Source of the DNA: Carnobacterium sp. CP1
GTDB taxonomy: Bacteria > Bacillota > Bacilli > Lactobacillales > Carnobacteriaceae
Assembly: GCF_001483965.1 (NCBI RefSeq)
Contig: NZ_CP010796.1
Span: 2,277,501-2,341,500 of the forward strand
Direction of reading: 5' to 3'
Length of the DNA stretch: 64,000 bases
Positions 5,212 through 63,583 of this stretch are shown here, piece by piece. A program made the translations under genes and the position numbers. Positions within the stretch are counted from its first letter, which is position 1, and each line of letters starts with the position of its first letter. The notes below the pieces were generated by a model, which did no database searches, had not been told where the DNA came from, and saw only the letters and a list, made by a program, of their open reading frames with translations.

Positions 5212-5575
5212 GGGGGCGTTACGGATTCGACAGGTATAGGTCGAGCTTGGATTGCGTTTCGTAGGTTACGTCTACGTAAAAACGTTACAGTTAAAATAAC
5301 TGCTAAAAACAATAATAACTCTTACGCTTTAGCTGCGTAATAACAGCTTAGTGTAGATCCTCTCGGCATCGCCCATGTGCTCGAGCAAGGGTCCTATAAT
5401 TAGTGGGATACGCTAAACCTTTCCGTCTGCAAGGTTTAGAAGAGATTATCAGACTAGCGAAGCACGATGCCGGTTGTGTGGCTGGTGCCCAGCGAATCTT
5501 TAAATAGCATAACTATAAACGTAGATGTCTAGGTGCCGATATATTTGGACGCGGGTTCGACTCCCGCCGTCTCCA
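5212..5575 (+). ncRNA. ssrA: tmRNA (ribosome rescue RNA)
   Basis: Rescues stalled ribosomes by trans-translation together with SmpB. The 5' end GGGGGCG pairs with CGTCTCC (5568-5574) to form the tRNA-Ala-like acceptor stem; the 5' part continues GTTACGGATTCGACAGG and the 3' part holds the T-arm GGGTTCGACTCCC. The resume codon is GCT at 5302; the tag open frame runs 5302-5340 and reads AKNNNNSYALAA then TAA, so the full tag is Ala plus these twelve residues. CCA is not encoded: after discriminator A5575 the genome reads TGA. The tag is of the Lactobacillales type. No integrase or attachment-site duplication is seen at the 3' end. Confidence 0.97.
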
Positions 5576-5602
5576 TGAAAAAACTAGTTTGAAGAACTAA
5601 AT

Positions 5603-19612: not shown

Positions 19613-19921
19613 AATATCATATTCATAGCGTTGATAAGAAGAGTACGTTCGTTACAAGCATTTATAGAGAGCCTCGGTTGCTGAAAAGAGGTAATGGGAG
19701 TCGAACCGAAGATGGTCTTTGAGCAGAATAAGTGAATGCGAAAGCACAAGCTTTTTCCGGAAGCACCCGATAAAGTGCCGCAGTATAAGAGTTGCAATGA
19801 ACTCAGTACTGATTGAGGTTGGTTTAGCGATGAATCAACGAATTAAGGTGGTAACACGAAATGTCAAACTTTCGTCCTTATATTAAGTTAAGAACTTGGT
19901 ATAAGGGCGGAAGTTTTTTTG
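19613..19921 (+). promoter_or_regulatory. T-box leader, probably tRNA-Met responsive
   Basis: The leader has the T-box element AAGGTGGTAACACG (19844-19857 region) inside an antiterminator AAGG..CGAAA/TTTCG..CCTT, and the competing terminator ACTTTCGTCCTTATA / TATAAGGGCGGAAGT followed by T7 (ending near 19920). TGGT in the bulge would pair with a tRNA ending ACCA. Stem I shows the GATAAGAAGAGTA K-turn-like motif and a specifier candidate ATG at 19712-19714, seven bases before TTTGAG; another ATG at 19694 is possible. Uncharged tRNA-Met would switch on the methionine transporter genes downstream. Confidence 0.88.
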
Positions 19922-55972: not shown

Positions 55973-56004
55973 ACAAAAAAGGCTCATTTGACGAGCTTTT
56001 TTGT
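55973..56004. terminator. Bidirectional terminator
   Basis: AAAAAAGGCTC and GAGCTTTTTT form a stem with A and T runs on both sides, between two convergent genes. Confidence 0.75.
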
Positions 56005-56006
56005 TA

Positions 56007-56315
56007 CTACTCTTCTTTCTTGCTGTAAATTTCATAAGCAAAATATCCGCCTAATAAGCCGATTCCAGCTCCTAAACTAAGTGTAGATAATAAAGAAATG
56101 GGAAAAAATGAGCTTGAAATCATACCAATAATACAACCAAGAAGCATGCCTAGTGGTATCAAACTATTTAGTAAATCTTGAGCGCCTTTGGTTTTTTTCT
56201 TACCCAAGGTACCATGATCGTGCTTTTGTTTAAGTTTTGTAACTACAAATATCCCGATTACCCCTACTATTATCATAGGGAGTAAAATAAGTGCAATTTC
56301 TATTACTGAGCTCAT
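56007..56315 (-). CDS. Small membrane protein of unknown function
   Basis: A 102-residue protein with three hydrophobic helices (about residues 6-25, 52-72, 76-95) separated by a Lys-rich loop (TKLKQKHDHGTLGKKKTK) and a Glu-rich tail. Not recognised. ATG 56315 has AAGGAG eight bases upstream. Minus strand, convergent with the small protein gene, and upstream of the FMN riboswitch region on the other strand. Confidence 0.65.
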   Translation of the reverse strand: MSSVIEIALILLPMIIVGVIGIFVVTKLKQKHDHGTLGKKKTKGAQDLLNSLIPLGMLLGCIIGMISSSFFPISLLSTLSLGAGIGLLGGYFAYEIYSKKEE

Positions 56316-56405
56316 ACTCAAATCTCCTTCATTTTTTAATCTGAATTGATTCTACCATACTTAATTAATACAGCTAACCAACTGCTTCAAAAAATTAAAT
56401 CACTA

Positions 56406-56432
56406 TTGACATTAGTTTTGTTTCACTATACT
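56406..56432 (+). promoter_or_regulatory. Promoter of the riboflavin operon
   Basis: TTGACA (56406-56411), 15-bp spacer, TATACT (56427-56432). Both boxes are near consensus; the spacer is short. It precedes the first FMN riboswitch. Confidence 0.6.
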
Positions 56433-56454
56433 CTTACAGTACAAAAGTAAATAA

Positions 56455-56561
56455 GTCTTCAGGGCAGGGTGCAAGTCCCTACCGGTGGTAAAGCCCACGA
56501 GCCGCAAGGCAGATTCGGTTAGATTCCGAAGCCGACAGTATAGTCTGGATAAAGCGAAGAC
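56455..56561 (+). promoter_or_regulatory. FMN riboswitch (RFN element), first copy
   Basis: P1 is GTCTTC (56455-56460) with GAAGAC (56556-56561). Inside are the RFN blocks AGGGCAGGG, AGTCCCTACCGGTGGTAAAG, CCCACGAGCCGC, GATTCGGTTAGATTCCGAAGC and CCGACAGTATAGTCTGGAT. It binds FMN and, by establishing a terminator, lowers riboflavin gene expression. It controls the hairpin at 56666-56696. Confidence 0.96.
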
Positions 56562-56665
56562 AAACTAATTGCTGAACAATGAAGATGATTGAAGTCTTAT
56601 TTGAGATGGATGGAAATCGTGAGTTTATGATGCAGCTATTAAACCGTCTTATTTAACGATAAGCC

Positions 56666-56696
56666 AAGCCCTGGATGTAAATCTTGGGCTTTTTTG
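56666..56696 (+). terminator. Terminator of the first FMN riboswitch
   Basis: AAGCCC / GGGCTT stem with a 14-base loop, then T5. It lies before the second riboswitch. Confidence 0.75.
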
Positions 56697-56719
56697 TATA
56701 GTGTTTGAAAAATTAAATA

Positions 56720-56826
56720 GTCTTCAGGGCAGGGCGAAAGTCCCTACCGGTGGTAAAGCCCACGAGCCGCGAGGCAGATTCGGTTAGATTCCGAAGCCGA
56801 CAGTTATAGTCTGGATAAAAGAAGAC
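56720..56826 (+). promoter_or_regulatory. FMN riboswitch (RFN element), second copy
   Basis: The same element repeated, P1 GTCTTC (56720-56725) with GAAGAC (56821-56826). It differs from the first copy at a handful of positions, all in loops or non-core stretches (for example GGGTGCAAG against GGGCGAAAG, GCCGCAAGG against GCCGCGAGG). All core blocks are intact, so it should bind FMN. It is 265 bases after the first copy start. Confidence 0.96.
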
Positions 56827-56904
56827 ATCAGTTTTAAAGAACAAAAGCAACCGTGTACATAGTATGCGGATTTATTTGTGGTGTCTTTATAAACAAAAAT
56901 GACG

Positions 56905-56938
56905 AAAGCCCTGAGAAGAAATTCTTAGGGCTTTTTAT
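56905..56938 (+). terminator. Terminator of the second FMN riboswitch
   Basis: AAAGCCCTGAGAA / TTCTTAGGGCTTT stem with a 4-base loop, followed by a T tract, 20 bases before the ribD start. Confidence 0.85.
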
Positions 56939-56957
56939 TTGGGAAGGGGTGAGAGGA

Positions 56958-58046
56958 TTGGATGAAGAATATATGCAGCTTGCATTGAATTTAGCCAAGA
57001 AAGGCAAAGGATGGACGTCGCCGAATCCTTTAGTGGGTGCTGTGGTTGTTAAAGATGGAAGAGTGATTGGTCAGGGATATCATGAAACATACGGGCAGCC
57101 TCATGCGGAAGTAAATGCGGTTGCATCAGCAAAAGAAGATGTGGCAGGAGCAACGTTGTATGTCACGCTAGAGCCTTGTTCGCATTTGGGAAGAACGCCT
57201 CCTTGCTCAGACTTGTTGATAGAGAAAAAGATTCAACGAGTCGTGGTTGGGACGTTCGATCCGAATCCATTAGTGGCTGGAAAAGGGATTGAAAGGATTC
57301 GTAATGCTGGAGTTGAAGTGGACGTAGGTGTCTTGGAAAAAGAATGCCAACTATTGAATGAAGTGTTTATGAAATACATTATCACTAAAGAACCTTTTGT
57401 TGTGATGAAAACGGCGATGTCACTAGACGGAAAAATAGCGACAGTGACGGGTGAATCTCAATGGATCTCTGGAGAAGCTTCCAGGCAGCAGGTACATAAT
57501 TTGCGTCATGAATTGTCTGGGATCATGGTCGGGGTCGAAACGGTTATCAGAGACGATCCGAAGCTAACTGCCAGAGGGCCAAATAGCAAAAATCCCATTA
57601 GAATTGTGGTGGATAGTCAGCTCAGAATTCCGCTGGCGTCAACGGTATTGACTCAGCAGGATACAGCTAAAACAATCGTAGCGGCTACTGAAAGAGCCGA
57701 TAGCGAAAGAGTAAAAACGTTAAAGCAAATGGGCGTTGAAGTCATTGTGACTAAAGAGAAGTCTGGGAGAGTTGATTTGCGGGAATTAATGAAAACACTA
57801 GGTGCCATGGGAATCGACAGTGTTTTGCTGGAAGGCGGTGCGGCATTGAATTTTTCAGCCTTGGAAGAAGGCATTGTGGATAAAATGCAGGTTTATATTG
57901 CGCCAAAAATCATCGGAGGAAAGCATGCTAAAACAGCTGTTGAAGGGGCAGGCGTTGCAGATTTGAAAGAGGCTTTTCAACTGAATCGGATGACAGCTGG
58001 GATGGTTGGAGAGGATCTAGTTGTAGAAGGCTATCTGGATAAATAA
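56958..58046 (+). CDS. ribD: Bifunctional pyrimidine deaminase/reductase RibD
   Basis: Second and third steps of riboflavin synthesis: deamination of the pyrimidine and reduction of the ribosyl side chain. 362 residues. Deaminase zinc site: HAEVNAV and PCSHLGRTPPC (residues about 50-85). Reductase domain from about 145 (KTAMSLDGKIAT, GVETVIRDDPKLTAR, LEGGAALNFS). TTG 56958 has AAGGGG eight bases upstream and gives the family N-terminus LDEEYMQLALNLAKKG; a longer frame would run into the terminator. First gene of the operon. Confidence 0.94.
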   Translation: MDEEYMQLALNLAKKGKGWTSPNPLVGAVVVKDGRVIGQGYHETYGQPHAEVNAVASAKEDVAGATLYVTLEPCSHLGRTPPCSDLLIEKKIQRVVVGTFDPNPLVAGKGIERIRNAGVEVDVGVLEKECQLLNEVFMKYIITKEPFVVMKTAMSLDGKIATVTGESQWISGEASRQQVHNLRHELSGIMVGVETVIRDDPKLTARGPNSKNPIRIVVDSQLRIPLASTVLTQQDTAKTIVAATERADSERVKTLKQMGVEVIVTKEKSGRVDLRELMKTLGAMGIDSVLLEGGAALNFSALEEGIVDKMQVYIAPKIIGGKHAKTAVEGAGVADLKEAFQLNRMTAGMVGEDLVVEGYLDK

Positions 58047-58074: not shown

Positions 58075-58731
58075 ATGTTTACTGGAATTATTGAAGAAGT
58101 GGGAACCGTTAAGTCGATCCAAAGCGGAAAAAGTTCTTCAGTTCTCAGAATAAAAGGGCAAAAAGTAGTGCAAGGAACGCGTATTGGGGACAGTATCGCA
58201 ACAAACGGTATTTGTTTGACTGTGACGAAGATAGAAAACGATTCTTTTGAAGCAGATGTTATGTCTGAATCATTAAAAAGGACGAATATCGGAACATTGA
58301 TTCCCGGAAGTTTCGTCAATCTAGAACGGGCACTGAGTTTGGAAACTCGGCTTGGCGGACATATCGTTAGCGGCCACATCGATGGAACTGGACAGATCAG
58401 CGAATTTAAACGCGACGATAATGCTGTTTGGCTCACAATTGAAACTGATCCTGGGATATTACGGTACATTATTGAAAAAGGCTCCATTGCTATTGATGGT
58501 GTAAGTTTGACTGTCGCGGCGGTGGATGATCAATCTTTTCAAGTTTCTATTATCCCACATACAGGAGAGGAAACGGTGTTGCTGTGTAAGCAACCGGGGG
58601 ATACTGTAAACCTGGAATGCGACATGATTGGAAAGTATGTCGAGAAATTATTAGGACTGAATTCGAAAAAACAACCTCAAGAGAGCAGTCGAATAACGCA
58701 AGATTATTTGCAGGAAAACGGGTTCTTTTAG
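58075..58731 (+). CDS. ribE: Riboflavin synthase alpha subunit
   Basis: Dismutates two lumazines to riboflavin. 218 residues with two lumazine-binding repeats: MFTGIIEEVGTV at the start, GDSIATNGICLTV and GSIAIDGVSLTV in the two barrels, HIVSGHIDGTG in the middle. Starts 28 bases after ribD. Confidence 0.95.
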   Translation: MFTGIIEEVGTVKSIQSGKSSSVLRIKGQKVVQGTRIGDSIATNGICLTVTKIENDSFEADVMSESLKRTNIGTLIPGSFVNLERALSLETRLGGHIVSGHIDGTGQISEFKRDDNAVWLTIETDPGILRYIIEKGSIAIDGVSLTVAAVDDQSFQVSIIPHTGEETVLLCKQPGDTVNLECDMIGKYVEKLLGLNSKKQPQESSRITQDYLQENGFF

Positions 58732-58749: not shown

Positions 58750-59943
58750 ATGTTTAATACAATTGAAGAATTATTGGCTGATTTAAAGGCTGGAAAAAAT
58801 ATCTTATTGGTGGATGATGAAGATCGAGAAAATGAAGGGGATGTTATCTGCGCTGCTGAATTTGCGACGGCAGAAAATGTGAATTTTATGGCTGCCTATG
58901 CTAAAGGCTTGATTTGTATGCCAATGACTAAAACATATACGAAGAAGTTAGCCTTGCCGCAAATGAGTTTGGACAATACAGACAATCACGAAACAGCGTT
59001 TACCGTTTCAGTGGACCACGTAGCGACTACAACGGGGATTTCAGCGGGAGAACGGTCATTGACAGCTATGCAATTAGTTTCGGATGATGCGAAACCGGAA
59101 GATTTTAGAAGACCAGGGCATATGTTCCCGTTAGAAGCGGTGGAAGGAGGCGTGTTAACTCGAAATGGACATACTGAAGCTACGGTTGACTTGATGCGAT
59201 TGGCAGGCTTGCAGCCAGTGGGATTGTGCTGTGAAATCATGAAAGAAGACGGAACGATGGCAAGAAGAGATGATTTGCTATCGTTGGCCAAAGAGCATGG
59301 ATTGAAGATCGGGACAATTGCAGATTTGATTGACTACCGGAAAGCCAAAGAAGCGGTTATTTTTCGCCAATCCAAAGCGCAATTGCCTACCAAATATGGA
59401 GAGTTCGACATTTACGCATATGAACACGCTATTACCGGGGAACATCATGTGGCTTTGGTTATGGGAGAGGTCAGTGACGGAGAACCAGTATTGTGCCGGA
59501 TTCATTCAGAATGCTTGACCGGGGATGTATTCGGTTCTAAAAAATGCGATTGCGGTCAGCAGTTGGACGCGGCAATGAAACATATTGCAAACGAAGGTCG
59601 TGGTGTTTTGGTGTATATGCGGCAAGAAGGGCGCGGGATCGGCTTGGTCAATAAAATAAGAGCTTATGCATTGCAAGATCAAGGACACGATACGATTGAA
59701 GCCAATTTGATGCTGGGATTCCCAATAGATTTGCGAGAGTATTATGAGTGCAAACAAATTTTTGATGATTTAGGCATCTATCAACTACGTTTGATGACCA
59801 ATAATCCGCTGAAAGTTGAAAGCATGGAGAAATACGGTTTGGACATCGTAGAAAGAATTTCACTTCAAATGGATGCTTATGCAGAGGATGAAGCTTATTT
59901 AAAGATCAAACAAGAAAAAATGAAGCACTTTTTGAACTATTAA
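58750..59943 (+). CDS. ribBA: Bifunctional RibBA (DHBP synthase / GTP cyclohydrolase II)
   Basis: Makes both lumazine precursors. 397 residues: N-terminal DHBP synthase (VDDEDRENEGDVICAAEFAT, GHMFPLEAVEGGVLTRNGHTEA split), C-terminal GTP cyclohydrolase II with zinc Cys in SECLTGDVFGSKKCDCGQQ and the RQEGRGIGL loop. Both domains appear intact. 18 bases after ribE. Confidence 0.95.
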   Translation: MFNTIEELLADLKAGKNILLVDDEDRENEGDVICAAEFATAENVNFMAAYAKGLICMPMTKTYTKKLALPQMSLDNTDNHETAFTVSVDHVATTTGISAGERSLTAMQLVSDDAKPEDFRRPGHMFPLEAVEGGVLTRNGHTEATVDLMRLAGLQPVGLCCEIMKEDGTMARRDDLLSLAKEHGLKIGTIADLIDYRKAKEAVIFRQSKAQLPTKYGEFDIYAYEHAITGEHHVALVMGEVSDGEPVLCRIHSECLTGDVFGSKKCDCGQQLDAAMKHIANEGRGVLVYMRQEGRGIGLVNKIRAYALQDQGHDTIEANLMLGFPIDLREYYECKQIFDDLGIYQLRLMTNNPLKVESMEKYGLDIVERISLQMDAYAEDEAYLKIKQEKMKHFLNY

Positions 59944-59991: not shown

Positions 59992-60453
59992 ATGAACGTA
60001 TTCGAAGGAAACTTAATTGCAAAAGGTTTAAAAGTAGGGATCGTGGTTGCACGGTTTAATGAATTTATCGGGTCAAAATTATTGAGCGGTGCAGTGGACG
60101 GGTTGAGCAGACATGGTATGTCAGAGGAAGAAATCACTGTTGCGTGGGTACCGGGAGCTTATGAAATCCCGTTAGTAGCCCAAAAAATGGCAGCATCAGG
60201 AGATTACGATGCTGTTATCACGTTAGGTGCAGTCATAAAGGGTTCTACCTCACATTATGATTATGTATGTGCAGAAGTTTCGAAAGGAGTAGCTGCAGCT
60301 GCAATGAATACAGGAGTACCTGTTATTTTTGGTGTTTTGACGACTGACAATATCGAACAAGCTATTGAACGTGCCGGTACTAAAGCTGGAAATAAAGGGT
60401 ATGACTCAGCCGTTTCTGCAATTGAAATGGCTAATCTGTTGAAAGGTATGTAA
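59992..60453 (+). CDS. ribH: 6,7-dimethyl-8-ribityllumazine synthase
   Basis: Forms lumazine from the RibBA and RibD products. 153 residues: [34 protein letters not shown] and [14 protein letters not shown], with the active-site His in SHYDYV. 48 bases after ribBA, with GGAGG upstream. Last gene of the ribDEBAH operon. Confidence 0.95.
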
Positions 60454-60907: not shown

Positions 60908-61498
60908 ATGGAAAAACTAAAAGTAGGAGATTTAATTAATATCGGCGTTTTTAGTGCGCTGTATTTTGTTTGTCTATCGGTTGGAACGTTGCTAGGAGTA
61001 GTATTGATTCCAGGAGGAACGCATATTTTCGCGCCTTCATTTGCAGCTCTTCTTTCCGGAGTTGTTTACATGTTTTTAGTGACTAAAGTGAAAAAGTTTG
61101 GTGCGATTTCAATCGTAGGAATCTTATTGGCACTGTTTTACTTTAGTTCTGGTCATTTCGGACCAACTTTTTTAGCGAGTTTAATCTTTGGCTTTTTAGC
61201 AGATTTTGTTGCTAAAAAAGGACATTATGTAAGCGACAAATGGAATTTAGCGAGTTATTTTGTCTTTTCATTAGGCAATTTGGGACCGGTTTTGCCAATG
61301 TGGTTTATGAAAGAAGCTTATATTCAGAGTTTGGTTGAAAGAGGAAAAGATAATAGTTATATCACAAAGGTACTAGCTAGTTTCGAATGGCCCGTTATTG
61401 CGACTGTTTTAGTATCACTGGTTCTCTTTTCTATTATTGGCGGGGTATTTGGTCAAAAAATGGTGAAAAAACATTTTAGCAAAGCTGGTCTAGTGTAA
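60908..61498 (+). CDS. ECF transporter S component, Trep_Strep family
   Basis: A 196-residue membrane protein with six helices and a Lys-rich start, LKVGDLINIGVFSALYFV, matching the Trep_Strep family of ECF substrate-capture proteins. The substrate of this family is not known. It is followed by its own T component and a fused ATPase, with a one-base overlap to the T gene, so it is a complete dedicated ECF transporter, separate from the shared housekeeping module. Confidence 0.82.
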   Translation: MEKLKVGDLINIGVFSALYFVCLSVGTLLGVVLIPGGTHIFAPSFAALLSGVVYMFLVTKVKKFGAISIVGILLALFYFSSGHFGPTFLASLIFGFLADFVAKKGHYVSDKWNLASYFVFSLGNLGPVLPMWFMKEAYIQSLVERGKDNSYITKVLASFEWPVIATVLVSLVLFSIIGGVFGQKMVKKHFSKAGLV

Positions 61499-62178
61499 TG
61501 CAACTTGATCCAAGGACTAAAATGGTCATTTTGCTTTGGTGCAACTACATTTTGCTGAGCCAGGTCCAAGGTATGTTAGAAGTAATAACGGTATTCCTTT
61601 TAGCACTGTTGTTTATTCTAGCGGATAAAGGAAAAACCGGGGTAACGTATTTGCTGATTTTTTTAGGGATGATTTTGGTAGATAAATATGTCATTGACCA
61701 AGTTTCCGATGGAGTCTCAATGGTCCTTATTTTCTTTGCGGTAAGTTTGCGATTGATGCTGCCGTGCATTATGGCTGGAACGTATTTGATGCAAACTACC
61801 ACTGTGGGAGAATTAACTCTGGGATTGCGAAAATTACGGACACCAGAAAGTATTCTTATTCCAGTCATTGTGATGGTCCGTTTTTTACCAGCAATCAAGC
61901 AAGATTATCAGCATATTCGGGATGCCATGAAGTTTCGCGGCATCTTTCTTTCAAAAGGGGACATGGTTAAGCAGCCGGTCCGCTTTTTTGAATACATCAT
62001 TATTCCCATGATGATGTCTGCTGGAAATACGGCACAAGATTTAACGATTGCTTCATTGGCGAAGGGAATCAGTCGTAAGAATAAACACACAAGTATCGAA
62101 CGGATAGGTTTTAACATTCAAGATATATTCTGTCTAACGTTGATCATCGGGTTTGTGTATTTACACCAAGTACTGTAG
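61498..62178 (+). CDS. ECF transporter T component
   Basis: A 226-residue EcfT/CbiQ-type membrane protein that couples the S component to the ATPases. It begins LDPRTKMVILLWCNYILL, has five hydrophobic helices and shows ARxF-type coupling residues in RDAMKFRGIFL and later AQDLTIASLAKGIS. It overlaps the S gene by one base. The ATG lies in TAATG, giving tight coupling. Confidence 0.85.
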   Translation: MQLDPRTKMVILLWCNYILLSQVQGMLEVITVFLLALLFILADKGKTGVTYLLIFLGMILVDKYVIDQVSDGVSMVLIFFAVSLRLMLPCIMAGTYLMQTTTVGELTLGLRKLRTPESILIPVIVMVRFLPAIKQDYQHIRDAMKFRGIFLSKGDMVKQPVRFFEYIIIPMMMSAGNTAQDLTIASLAKGISRKNKHTSIERIGFNIQDIFCLTLIIGFVYLHQVL

Positions 62179-62191
62179 AAAGGGGATTGCT

Positions 62192-63583
62192 GTGATCAAT
62201 TTAACGAACTTTGTTTTTCATTATCCTTTTTCCGACGAAAAGGCTGTTGCTGCCTCAGCATTAAACATAACAGCAGGCGAGTGTATCGTTCTTTGCGGGA
62301 AAAGCGGCAGTGGTAAGACAACATTTACGCGATTAATCAATGGCTTGATACCAGAAGTGTATGAAGGCGAATGGAGCGGCAGCTTTCGAACAGATACACT
62401 GGAGTTGGGGAAATCTCAGATTGAAGACTATGCGAGTATCGTCGGTTCTGTTTTCCAAAACCCAAACACGCAATTTTTCCATATCAATAGCACGAAAGAA
62501 ATTGCTTTTCCTTGTGAAAATGCTGGAATAGAACCAGCTGAGATTTTAAAAAAAATAGATATCGTCAGTACAAATTTAGAGTTGCAGAATTTGTTGGATC
62601 GCAATCTGTTTGAATTGTCAGGGGGAGAGCGGCAAAAAGTTGCACTTGGCGCTGCTGCTATCCACGAACCAAAGATTGTTGTTCTAGACGAACCAACCGG
62701 CAACTTAGATGCAGACGCAATCGCGATGGTCGCCTATACGATCCGTCAGTTAAAAGCTAAAGGAATCACCGTTGTTGTTGCTGAACATCGGTTAGAATAC
62801 TTGAATGGGATTGCCGATCGTTACTGTTACTTTGAAGAGGGAGAATTAAGAACCATTTATAATCAAGAAGATTTTTTAGCGTTAAGCAATGAACAACTGC
62901 ATCAAAAAGGCCTGCGTTCTACTGATTTAGAACCCTACAAAAAAGCAGTGCAAGAGTTGATCGGTTCATTCGACTTTACAACAGAAAGTCTGTTGGCCGG
63001 AGAAGAGTTAGCGATAGGGTATAAAAAGCAAGAAGTACTAAAAGAAATCCCATCTTTTTCAATCGATGAACCGATGATTATTGGCATTATGGGCGCCAAT
63101 GGGGTTGGGAAAACAACATTCATCAAAGCTCTATCCGGCTTGCTGAAATTCAAGCATGGACAAGTGTATTGGAAAGGCAAGCCACAAACGGCAAAACAAA
63201 TGCTGAAACGCTGCTTCTTAGTGATGCAAGATGTTCATTACCAGTTGTTTTCTGAAAGCGTGAAAAATGAAATTTTATTAGGTGCTCAAAATCCTGAACG
63301 GTATGATGAGGTAATCGACTTGTTGGACTTGCGGAAGTTAGAATACCGGCACCCGGTTTCGTTATCGAGCGGTCAACAACAACGGGTAATGATTGCTGCC
63401 GCCATTTGTTCTGGAAAAGATATTTTGATTTTTGATGAACCAACCAGTGGTCTTGACTACACCAACATGGAAAACGTGACGAAACTCATGAAGCAGTTAA
63501 AAGCGATGGGGAAAATCATTTTTGTGATTACTCATGATCAGGAATTGGCTGCCAAGAGTTGTGACAAGATTATGCATTTTTAG
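62192..63583 (+). CDS. ECF transporter fused double ATPase
   Basis: A 463-residue protein with two ATPase domains in one chain, in place of separate EcfA1 and EcfA2. Domain 1 has Walker A GKSGSGKTT, signature LSGGERQKVAL and Walker B IVVLDEPTGNLDAD; domain 2 has Walker A GANGVGKTT, signature LSSGQQQRVMI and Walker B ILIFDEPTSGLDY. GTG 62192 has AAGGGG six bases upstream; an upstream frame extension overlaps the T gene and is not needed. Last gene of the operon. Confidence 0.88.
   Translation: MINLTNFVFHYPFSDEKAVAASALNITAGECIVLCGKSGSGKTTFTRLINGLIPEVYEGEWSGSFRTDTLELGKSQIEDYASIVGSVFQNPNTQFFHINSTKEIAFPCENAGIEPAEILKKIDIVSTNLELQNLLDRNLFELSGGERQKVALGAAAIHEPKIVVLDEPTGNLDADAIAMVAYTIRQLKAKGITVVVAEHRLEYLNGIADRYCYFEEGELRTIYNQEDFLALSNEQLHQKGLRSTDLEPYKKAVQELIGSFDFTTESLLAGEELAIGYKKQEVLKEIPSFSIDEPMIIGIMGANGVGKTTFIKALSGLLKFKHGQVYWKGKPQTAKQMLKRCFLVMQDVHYQLFSESVKNEILLGAQNPERYDEVIDLLDLRKLEYRHPVSLSSGQQQRVMIAAAICSGKDILIFDEPTSGLDYTNMENVTKLMKQLKAMGKIIFVITHDQELAAKSCDKIMHF

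Follow-up and report, generated by a model that had tools for sequence, protein, structure and literature searches.

Background

The ribD leader of Bacillus subtilis carries a single FMN riboswitch. It controls ribD by transcription termination, according to the part of the source available (PMC11477304), and the leader described here is predicted to act in this way too, with two aptamers where that of B. subtilis has one. Leaders with several FMN sensors are already in print. In the accessible portions of two recent articles, 31 doublets and 4 triplets of FMN riboswitches are counted and termed pseudo-cooperative (Sherlock et al. 2022, PMC9481103), and contiguous FMN riboswitches are reported as enriched before ribE, ribB and ribH of Bacillota, 87% as doubles and 13% as triples (Morales and Merino 2025, PMC12452182). 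Tandem complete riboswitches, which an earlier interpretation of this locus from its letters (hereafter the sequence-only reading) had cited as known for other ligands, are thus described for FMN itself, and what the present locus adds is a conserved set of examples.

The locus shares with the tandem switches of Sherlock et al. the presence of two or three complete switches per leader, and with the arrays of Morales and Merino both the genes and the phylum. The accessible portion of the first article does not give the species of the FMN tandems, their origin or a comparison of their platforms; in the second, the string 'Carnobacter' is absent from the main text, and the available sections treat neither homogenised aptamers nor origin. 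A third relative is the c-di-GMP riboswitch Bc1, described in the excerpt at hand as one aptamer with a dual terminator (PMC11218506). There are two intrinsic terminators per leader in both cases, and Bc1 is a precedent for one aptamer serving two terminators; its ligand is another one, however, whereas in our locus each terminator has its own aptamer. Among the matches listed by our literature searches, we saw nothing on tandem FMN riboswitches of Carnobacterium, on gene conversion between tandem riboswitches or on Term-seq of such a ribD leader and, in the open-access literature, no FMN leader with one aptamer and two terminators. The interest of the locus lies in how tandem riboswitches arise and persist.

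Two FMN switches in the leader of a riboflavin operon

We scanned the whole window (the 64,000-nucleotide stretch of Carnobacterium sp. CP1 analysed here) with cmscan and obtained two full-model matches to the FMN family RF00050 in one leader, both above the gathering cut-off of 66.2 bits (Table 1). Their P1-to-P1 cores, at 56455-56561 and 56720-56826, are the two 107-base elements with few differences that the sequence-only reading had picked out. These cores are set apart by 158 nt, and realignment of the copies shows 4 substitutions and 2 one-base indels between them. Both stand in a leader of riboflavin genes, with ribD-ribE-ribBA-ribH downstream; the first three open reading frames we take to be ribD, ribE (riboflavin synthase alpha) and ribBA. 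Both aptamers are predicted from their sequence to bind FMN. With two complete aptamers of the same class in one leader, each followed by its own expression platform, the layout is that of a candidate tandem pseudo-cooperative switch.

The promoter had been placed at 56406-56432. Its -35 box, TTGACA, was correctly identified, but the -10 box conserved among related arrays is TACTCT, at a spacing of 17 nt and two bases downstream of the TATACT proposed before (56427-56432, 15 nt): TTGAC[AT]-N17-TANTCT occurs upstream of aptamer 1 in all 8 arrays of the family. A simple consensus scan of positions 56000-57100 listed no promoter. Consensus scores in the 8 arrays are 8-10 of 12 before aptamer 1 and 7-9 of 12 between the units, the ranges overlapping, and in one genome (G016) the between-unit site outscores that before aptamer 1. 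The sequence and place of the between-unit sites vary from genome to genome, and a conserved second promoter between the units was rejected for this reason.

Table 1. Features of the tandem FMN leader and of the operon behind it (positions in the window)
Feature	Position	Strand	Basis or property
Promoter: -35 TTGACA (56406-56411), 17-nt spacer, -10 TACTCT (56429-56434)	56406..56434	+	Conserved in 8/8 arrays
FMN aptamer 1	56451..56565	+	RF00050, 104.6 bits, E 3e-23, model 1-138 (cmscan)
Antiterminator strand, aptamer 1 (UUCAGGGC)	56458..56465	+	Partner 56668-56675 (GCCCUGGA), predicted by folding
Platform 1 spacer (type 1)	56562..56665	+	Type 1 conserved, 9 units of 8 genomes
Terminator T1 with U tract (six T)	56666..56696	+	-12.9 kcal/mol
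FMN aptamer 2	56716..56830	+	RF00050, 111.4 bits, E 4.3e-25, model 1-138 (cmscan)
Antiterminator strand, aptamer 2 (UUCAGGGC)	56723..56730	+	Partner 56908-56915 (GCCCUGAG), predicted by folding
Platform 2 spacer (type 2), with hairpin 56851-56869 inside	56827..56904	+	Type 2 conserved, 8 units of 8 genomes
Terminator T2 with U tract	56905..56938	+	-20.1 kcal/mol
Presumed ribD, 362 aa, TTG start	56958..58046	+	ORF; start inferred from ribosome-binding site
Presumed ribE, riboflavin synthase alpha	58075..58731	+	ORF; orthologue, same order, in 7 other arrays
Presumed ribBA	58750..59943	+	ORF; orthologue in same order in 7 other arrays
ribH, lumazine synthase	59992..60453	+	PF00885 match, E 4.6e-60

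Distribution of the array

Eight of the 18 genomes searched in the family have RibH, and the array is present in all 8, as a double in seven and as a triple in one (G006). By genus, RibH occurs in 4 of 5 genomes of the window's genus, in 4 of 6 of a second genus and in none of 7 from the other four genera; the remaining 10 of the 18 genomes have one FMN match, the RibH match being absent. The genomes with RibH have two or three FMN aptamers ahead of the operon, and an assembly artefact such as a collapsed repeat is unlikely, since the array is found again in 8 genomes.

At the level of the order, 390 of 395 genomes have an FMN match. Among 109 genomes sampled from the phylum, only the window's genome has two matches at most 600 bases apart (table read by eye). 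Outside the family there is at least one tandem FMN pair (G282, from another family; L108 1180-1702), located before a ribD-like gene, with an aptamer-complementary terminator (defined below) for each aptamer; by eye, its aptamers are nearly identical and its platforms unlike. For relatives of RibD, 37 loci were fetched and 28 scanned with Rfam (all but L098-L106). An FMN switch precedes ribD in 26 of these 28, the Rfam scan giving none before ribD in L096 and L097, and in none of the 26 is the switch before ribD a tandem. One locus (L072) has a further FMN switch about 3 kb upstream.

Terminators and antiterminators

Each element has its own terminator behind it, T1 and T2, with stems where the sequence-only reading had located them. 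The simple consensus scan of 56000-57100 listed neither; its one terminator-like site is the hairpin 56851-56869 in spacer 2, a yield at the shuffle rate (1 found, 0.7 expected). The positions of the two hairpins led us to reject two other classes for the leader: adjacent aptamers with a single platform, of the glycine type, because a terminator sits between the two aptamers, and a single aptamer with two terminators, because aptamer 2 sits between T1 and T2.

We derived alternative antiterminator structures for both units by folding, which takes no account of FMN, tertiary contacts or kinetics. When the 3' arm of T1 is not yet made, six core pairs of the unit 1 antiterminator have predicted probabilities of 0.99-1.00, and this fold beats a forced P1 by 5.9 kcal/mol. 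The corresponding figures for unit 2, with the 3' arm of T2 absent, are 0.93-0.99 and 7.0 kcal/mol, and here the spacer also captures the freed 3' strand of P1. For the full leader of unit 2, the predicted minimum combines P1 and the terminator. For that of unit 1, the same combination lies 1.0 kcal/mol above the minimum, the unconstrained minimum pairing otherwise than native P1.

An aptamer-complementary terminator was defined as a hairpin of <=-10 kcal/mol followed by a U tract, the 5' arm of which pairs with the aptamer 5' strand at <=-10. Exactly one such terminator was found in each of the 17 array units of the 8 genomes (17/17), and none in dinucleotide shuffles (0/510). Pairings between strand and arm of the same unit are also stabler than swapped ones, a result that none of 5000 permutations equalled across 24 units, which were hand-picked and partly selected by pairing, so that their choice favours pairing. 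A side observation, made by eye, concerns the type 1 spacer: in the window (56593-56656) it contains two AGUCUUAUUUGA-like motif copies with the potential to base-pair with the 3' strand of P1, and AGUCUGU stretches like this motif also occur in two single-aptamer leaders (L006 and L008).

Two probable gates in series

We consider it highly probable that the leader comprises two FMN-OFF transcription-attenuation riboswitches in series, and that this is an old, inherited layout of the family's rib operon. In the absence of FMN, the 5' strand of each aptamer (UUCAGGGC) would pair with the terminator 5' arm of the same unit, so that the polymerase could read through. In its presence, P1 would close on the UUCAGGGC strand, the terminator arm would be freed and the terminator would form. 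Only transcripts passing both gates would reach ribD. That both gates are active in the cell, that they are independent and that the arrangement is beneficial are predictions.

Since the leader contains two complete serial switches, each with its own terminator and antiterminator, full expression should require both to be free of FMN, a proposal of the sequence-only reading that these elements support by inference. That reading also expected a steeper shut-off and a lower leak. Because a transcript must clear both gates, the total leak would be the product of the two leaks. In a model of two equal, independent and non-cooperative gates, the effective Hill value rises from 1.00 to 1.19 without leak and is 1.13 with a leak of 10% at each gate; the floor is 1% in place of 10%, and the half-point moves from 1.00 to 0.41-0.47. 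The expectation of a lower leak thus holds in the model, where the floor is squared, but the gain in steepness is small (Hill 1.13-1.19). On this basis, a lower leak would be the main effect of two gates and steepness a small one.

Are the two gates equivalent? The platform types are conserved yet unlike each other, and in the window the hairpins have energies of -12.9 and -20.1 kcal/mol and the platforms lengths of 134 nt (unit 1) and 110 nt (unit 2). The units might therefore differ in sensitivity, through the length and stability of their platforms, and together broaden the response rather than sharpen it. The two hairpins do not always rank the same way in strength, however: T2 is the weaker one in four genomes (G001, G003, G004 and G016). 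We regard a widened response as unlikely, if worth keeping in mind.

It is improbable that a single unit regulates, the other being a relic or a fixed attenuator. Some precedent comes from the Bc1 leader, where, in the accessible part of the report, the terminator that dominates in vitro is not the one that dominates in vivo (PMC11218506). Here, though, both aptamers of the window score far above the cut-off, and aptamer, terminator and antiterminator are kept in both units of all 8 arrays.

The units could also interact. The sequence UUCAGGGC is common to both aptamers and GCCCUG to both arms, so that the strand of aptamer 1 might also pair with the arm of T2, and in single-aptamer relatives (see below) one strand seems to face two terminators. 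Gates coupled in this manner would not be independent. Each terminator nevertheless has its own, nearer aptamer available, and we give little credence to such coupling.

Age of the pair

A recent duplication of the whole switch followed by divergence of the two platforms, as the sequence-only reading had it, would fit the 91-99% identity of aptamers within a genome (in a first alignment, with a gap inside GAAGAC), yet is very improbable: both platform types appear, always in one order, in all 8 RibH genomes of two genera and are position-specific and conserved between these genera, spacers of type 1 resemble those of type 2 no more than shuffled sequences do (a score as high in 247 of 300 shuffles), the likeness of the copies tapers off about 11 nt ahead of P1 and 1-5 nt past it, and where a unit was evidently copied, in the triple, the platform was copied too. 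Two platform families can be recognised. Type 1 platforms measure 134-140 nt and are 62-96% alike (9 units, 8 genomes, two genera), type 2 platforms measure 107-113 nt and are 58-94% alike (8 units, 8 genomes, two genera), whereas likeness between the types is 29-39%. A split by position has 100% bootstrap support in the platform tree.

The aptamers behave differently. A split by position is rejected for them, with AU p-values of 1.6e-4 (HKY) and 1.5e-4 (JC) that are rough because the aptamers offer only about 25 variable columns; the first alignment, with its gap misplaced inside GAAGAC, gave 7.3e-6. A split by genus is not rejected, yet gains nothing over the free tree (p 0.46 and 0.52). Several lineage-specific changes are shared by the aptamers of one array: A at columns 57 and 91 in both copies of G001 and both of G004, G at column 103 in both copies of G003, and C at column 69 in both copies of G013 and of G016, the latter also found in unit 2 of G006. 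This partial sharing suggests that the aptamer pairs have been partly homogenised. Homogenisation is incomplete: no other of the 8 arrays has an aptamer pair as unlike as that of the window (6 differing columns), the window's aptamer 1 exactly matches aptamer 1 of a genome of the other genus (G017), and at column 88 the base still goes with position in the window and for most of the second genus (g3).

The likeness of aptamers within an array is thus probably maintained by recombination or selection and is not a sign of recent origin; parallel selection on the aptamers is possible. The triple of G006 shows the outcome of a later event. Its units 1 and 2 both have type 1 platforms, 96% alike, and the triple is a later copy of unit 1, platform included, as expected from unequal recombination. 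Since platforms are conserved by position across genera and unlike between types, the identity of the aptamers cannot date the duplication. Position is clearly recorded in the platforms but has been partly lost from the aptamers, which makes aptamer identity a poor clock.

One-aptamer leaders with two terminators and a possible origin

A plausible forerunner of the array is present in relatives, in the form of leaders where a single FMN aptamer is followed by two terminators. In two Trichococcus loci (L070 4673-4980, of Trichococcus palustris, and L071 4672-4980), both terminator arms are complementary to the same aptamer strand. The two-terminator, single-aptamer form before ribD is also found in 16 further loci among L072-L093, and in L004, L005, L006 and L008. 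In a first set of single-aptamer ribD leaders, which was drawn by likeness to the window's RibD and is not a random sample, 17 of 26 have two aptamer-complementary terminators, 4 have one and 5 none; not one of 780 shuffles of these leaders has even one such terminator. Under looser rules L071, L073 and L081 also have two.

A second, differently drawn set comprises 63 loci, 2 of them with no assigned gene and 6 unplaced (L122, L133-L137); a single switch cut by a contig end (L049) was left out. Two terminators were found in 4 of its 17 placed RibD leaders, all from one family of the order (f6), 9 others having one and 4 none. Among its RibU leaders, none of 38 has two aptamer-complementary terminators.

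The arms of these terminators show some regularity. All 8 arrays, and likewise the 4 f6 and the 2 Trichococcus leaders, combine CCCUGG in the first arm with CCCUGA in the second. The 17 leaders of the first set that have two terminators are less uniform: their first arm has GCUCUG in 15 cases and CCCUGG in 2, and their second arm has CCCUGA in 8. In the tandem pair of the other family (G282), the aptamer strand is UUCGGGGC and the arms are other than CCCUGG and CCCUGA. In the single-aptamer leaders, one sensor may drive two stop sites, the aptamer strand passing from the first arm to the second; should the predicted pairings of the forerunner hold, both stops would be governed by a single sensor.

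Since relatives have single-aptamer leaders with two successive complementary terminators, the array may stem from an aptamer inserted between terminators. We tentatively propose, as the simplest account though one somewhat less likely than not, that a single FMN aptamer was once followed by two terminators and that an aptamer-only copy, beginning some 11 nt ahead of P1 and ending just past it, was placed between these. The proposal takes the second aptamer to be a gain in the arrays rather than a loss in the relatives. Later recombination would then keep the aptamers similar and give rise to triples, as in G006.

Do the spacers retain a trace of such an origin? With nhmmer, the type 1 and type 2 spacers had no match better than E 0.27 in 31 leaders. 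In comparisons with the four f6 leaders, the T1-T2 piece of two of which (L006 and L008) still included the 3' arm of T1, the type 2 spacer shows a marginal likeness to the f6 spacer between T1 and T2 (8 of 300 shuffles as high) and less to that between aptamer and T1 (53/300); for the type 1 spacer, 160 of 300 shuffles score as high against the aptamer-T1 spacer and 45 of 300 against the T1-T2 spacer. Homology between the spacers of the arrays and those of the f6 leaders is at best weak or marginal by these scores. The two f6 spacers also resemble each other (2/300 shuffles as high), a likeness that the insertion account does not explain.

Other features of the window and its genome

A third FMN switch is located elsewhere in the genome, upstream of a gene that is presumably RibU-like. 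Past ribH (60908-63583), three open reading frames resemble, by eye, an ECF-type vitamin transporter, with a membrane component, an EcfT-like protein and a double ATPase. The window also holds a T-box leader on the + strand (19622-19882; RF00230, 109.1 bits) and a tmRNA (5212-5578; RF00023, 207.5 bits). The host has a second contig of 8.9 kb, about 2.1 kb of which (25%) is common to Enterococcus faecalis plasmids at 88% identity (L107 4628-7263); one matching plasmid record has annotations for a CadD family cadmium resistance transporter, for a recombinase and for an ArsR-type regulator.
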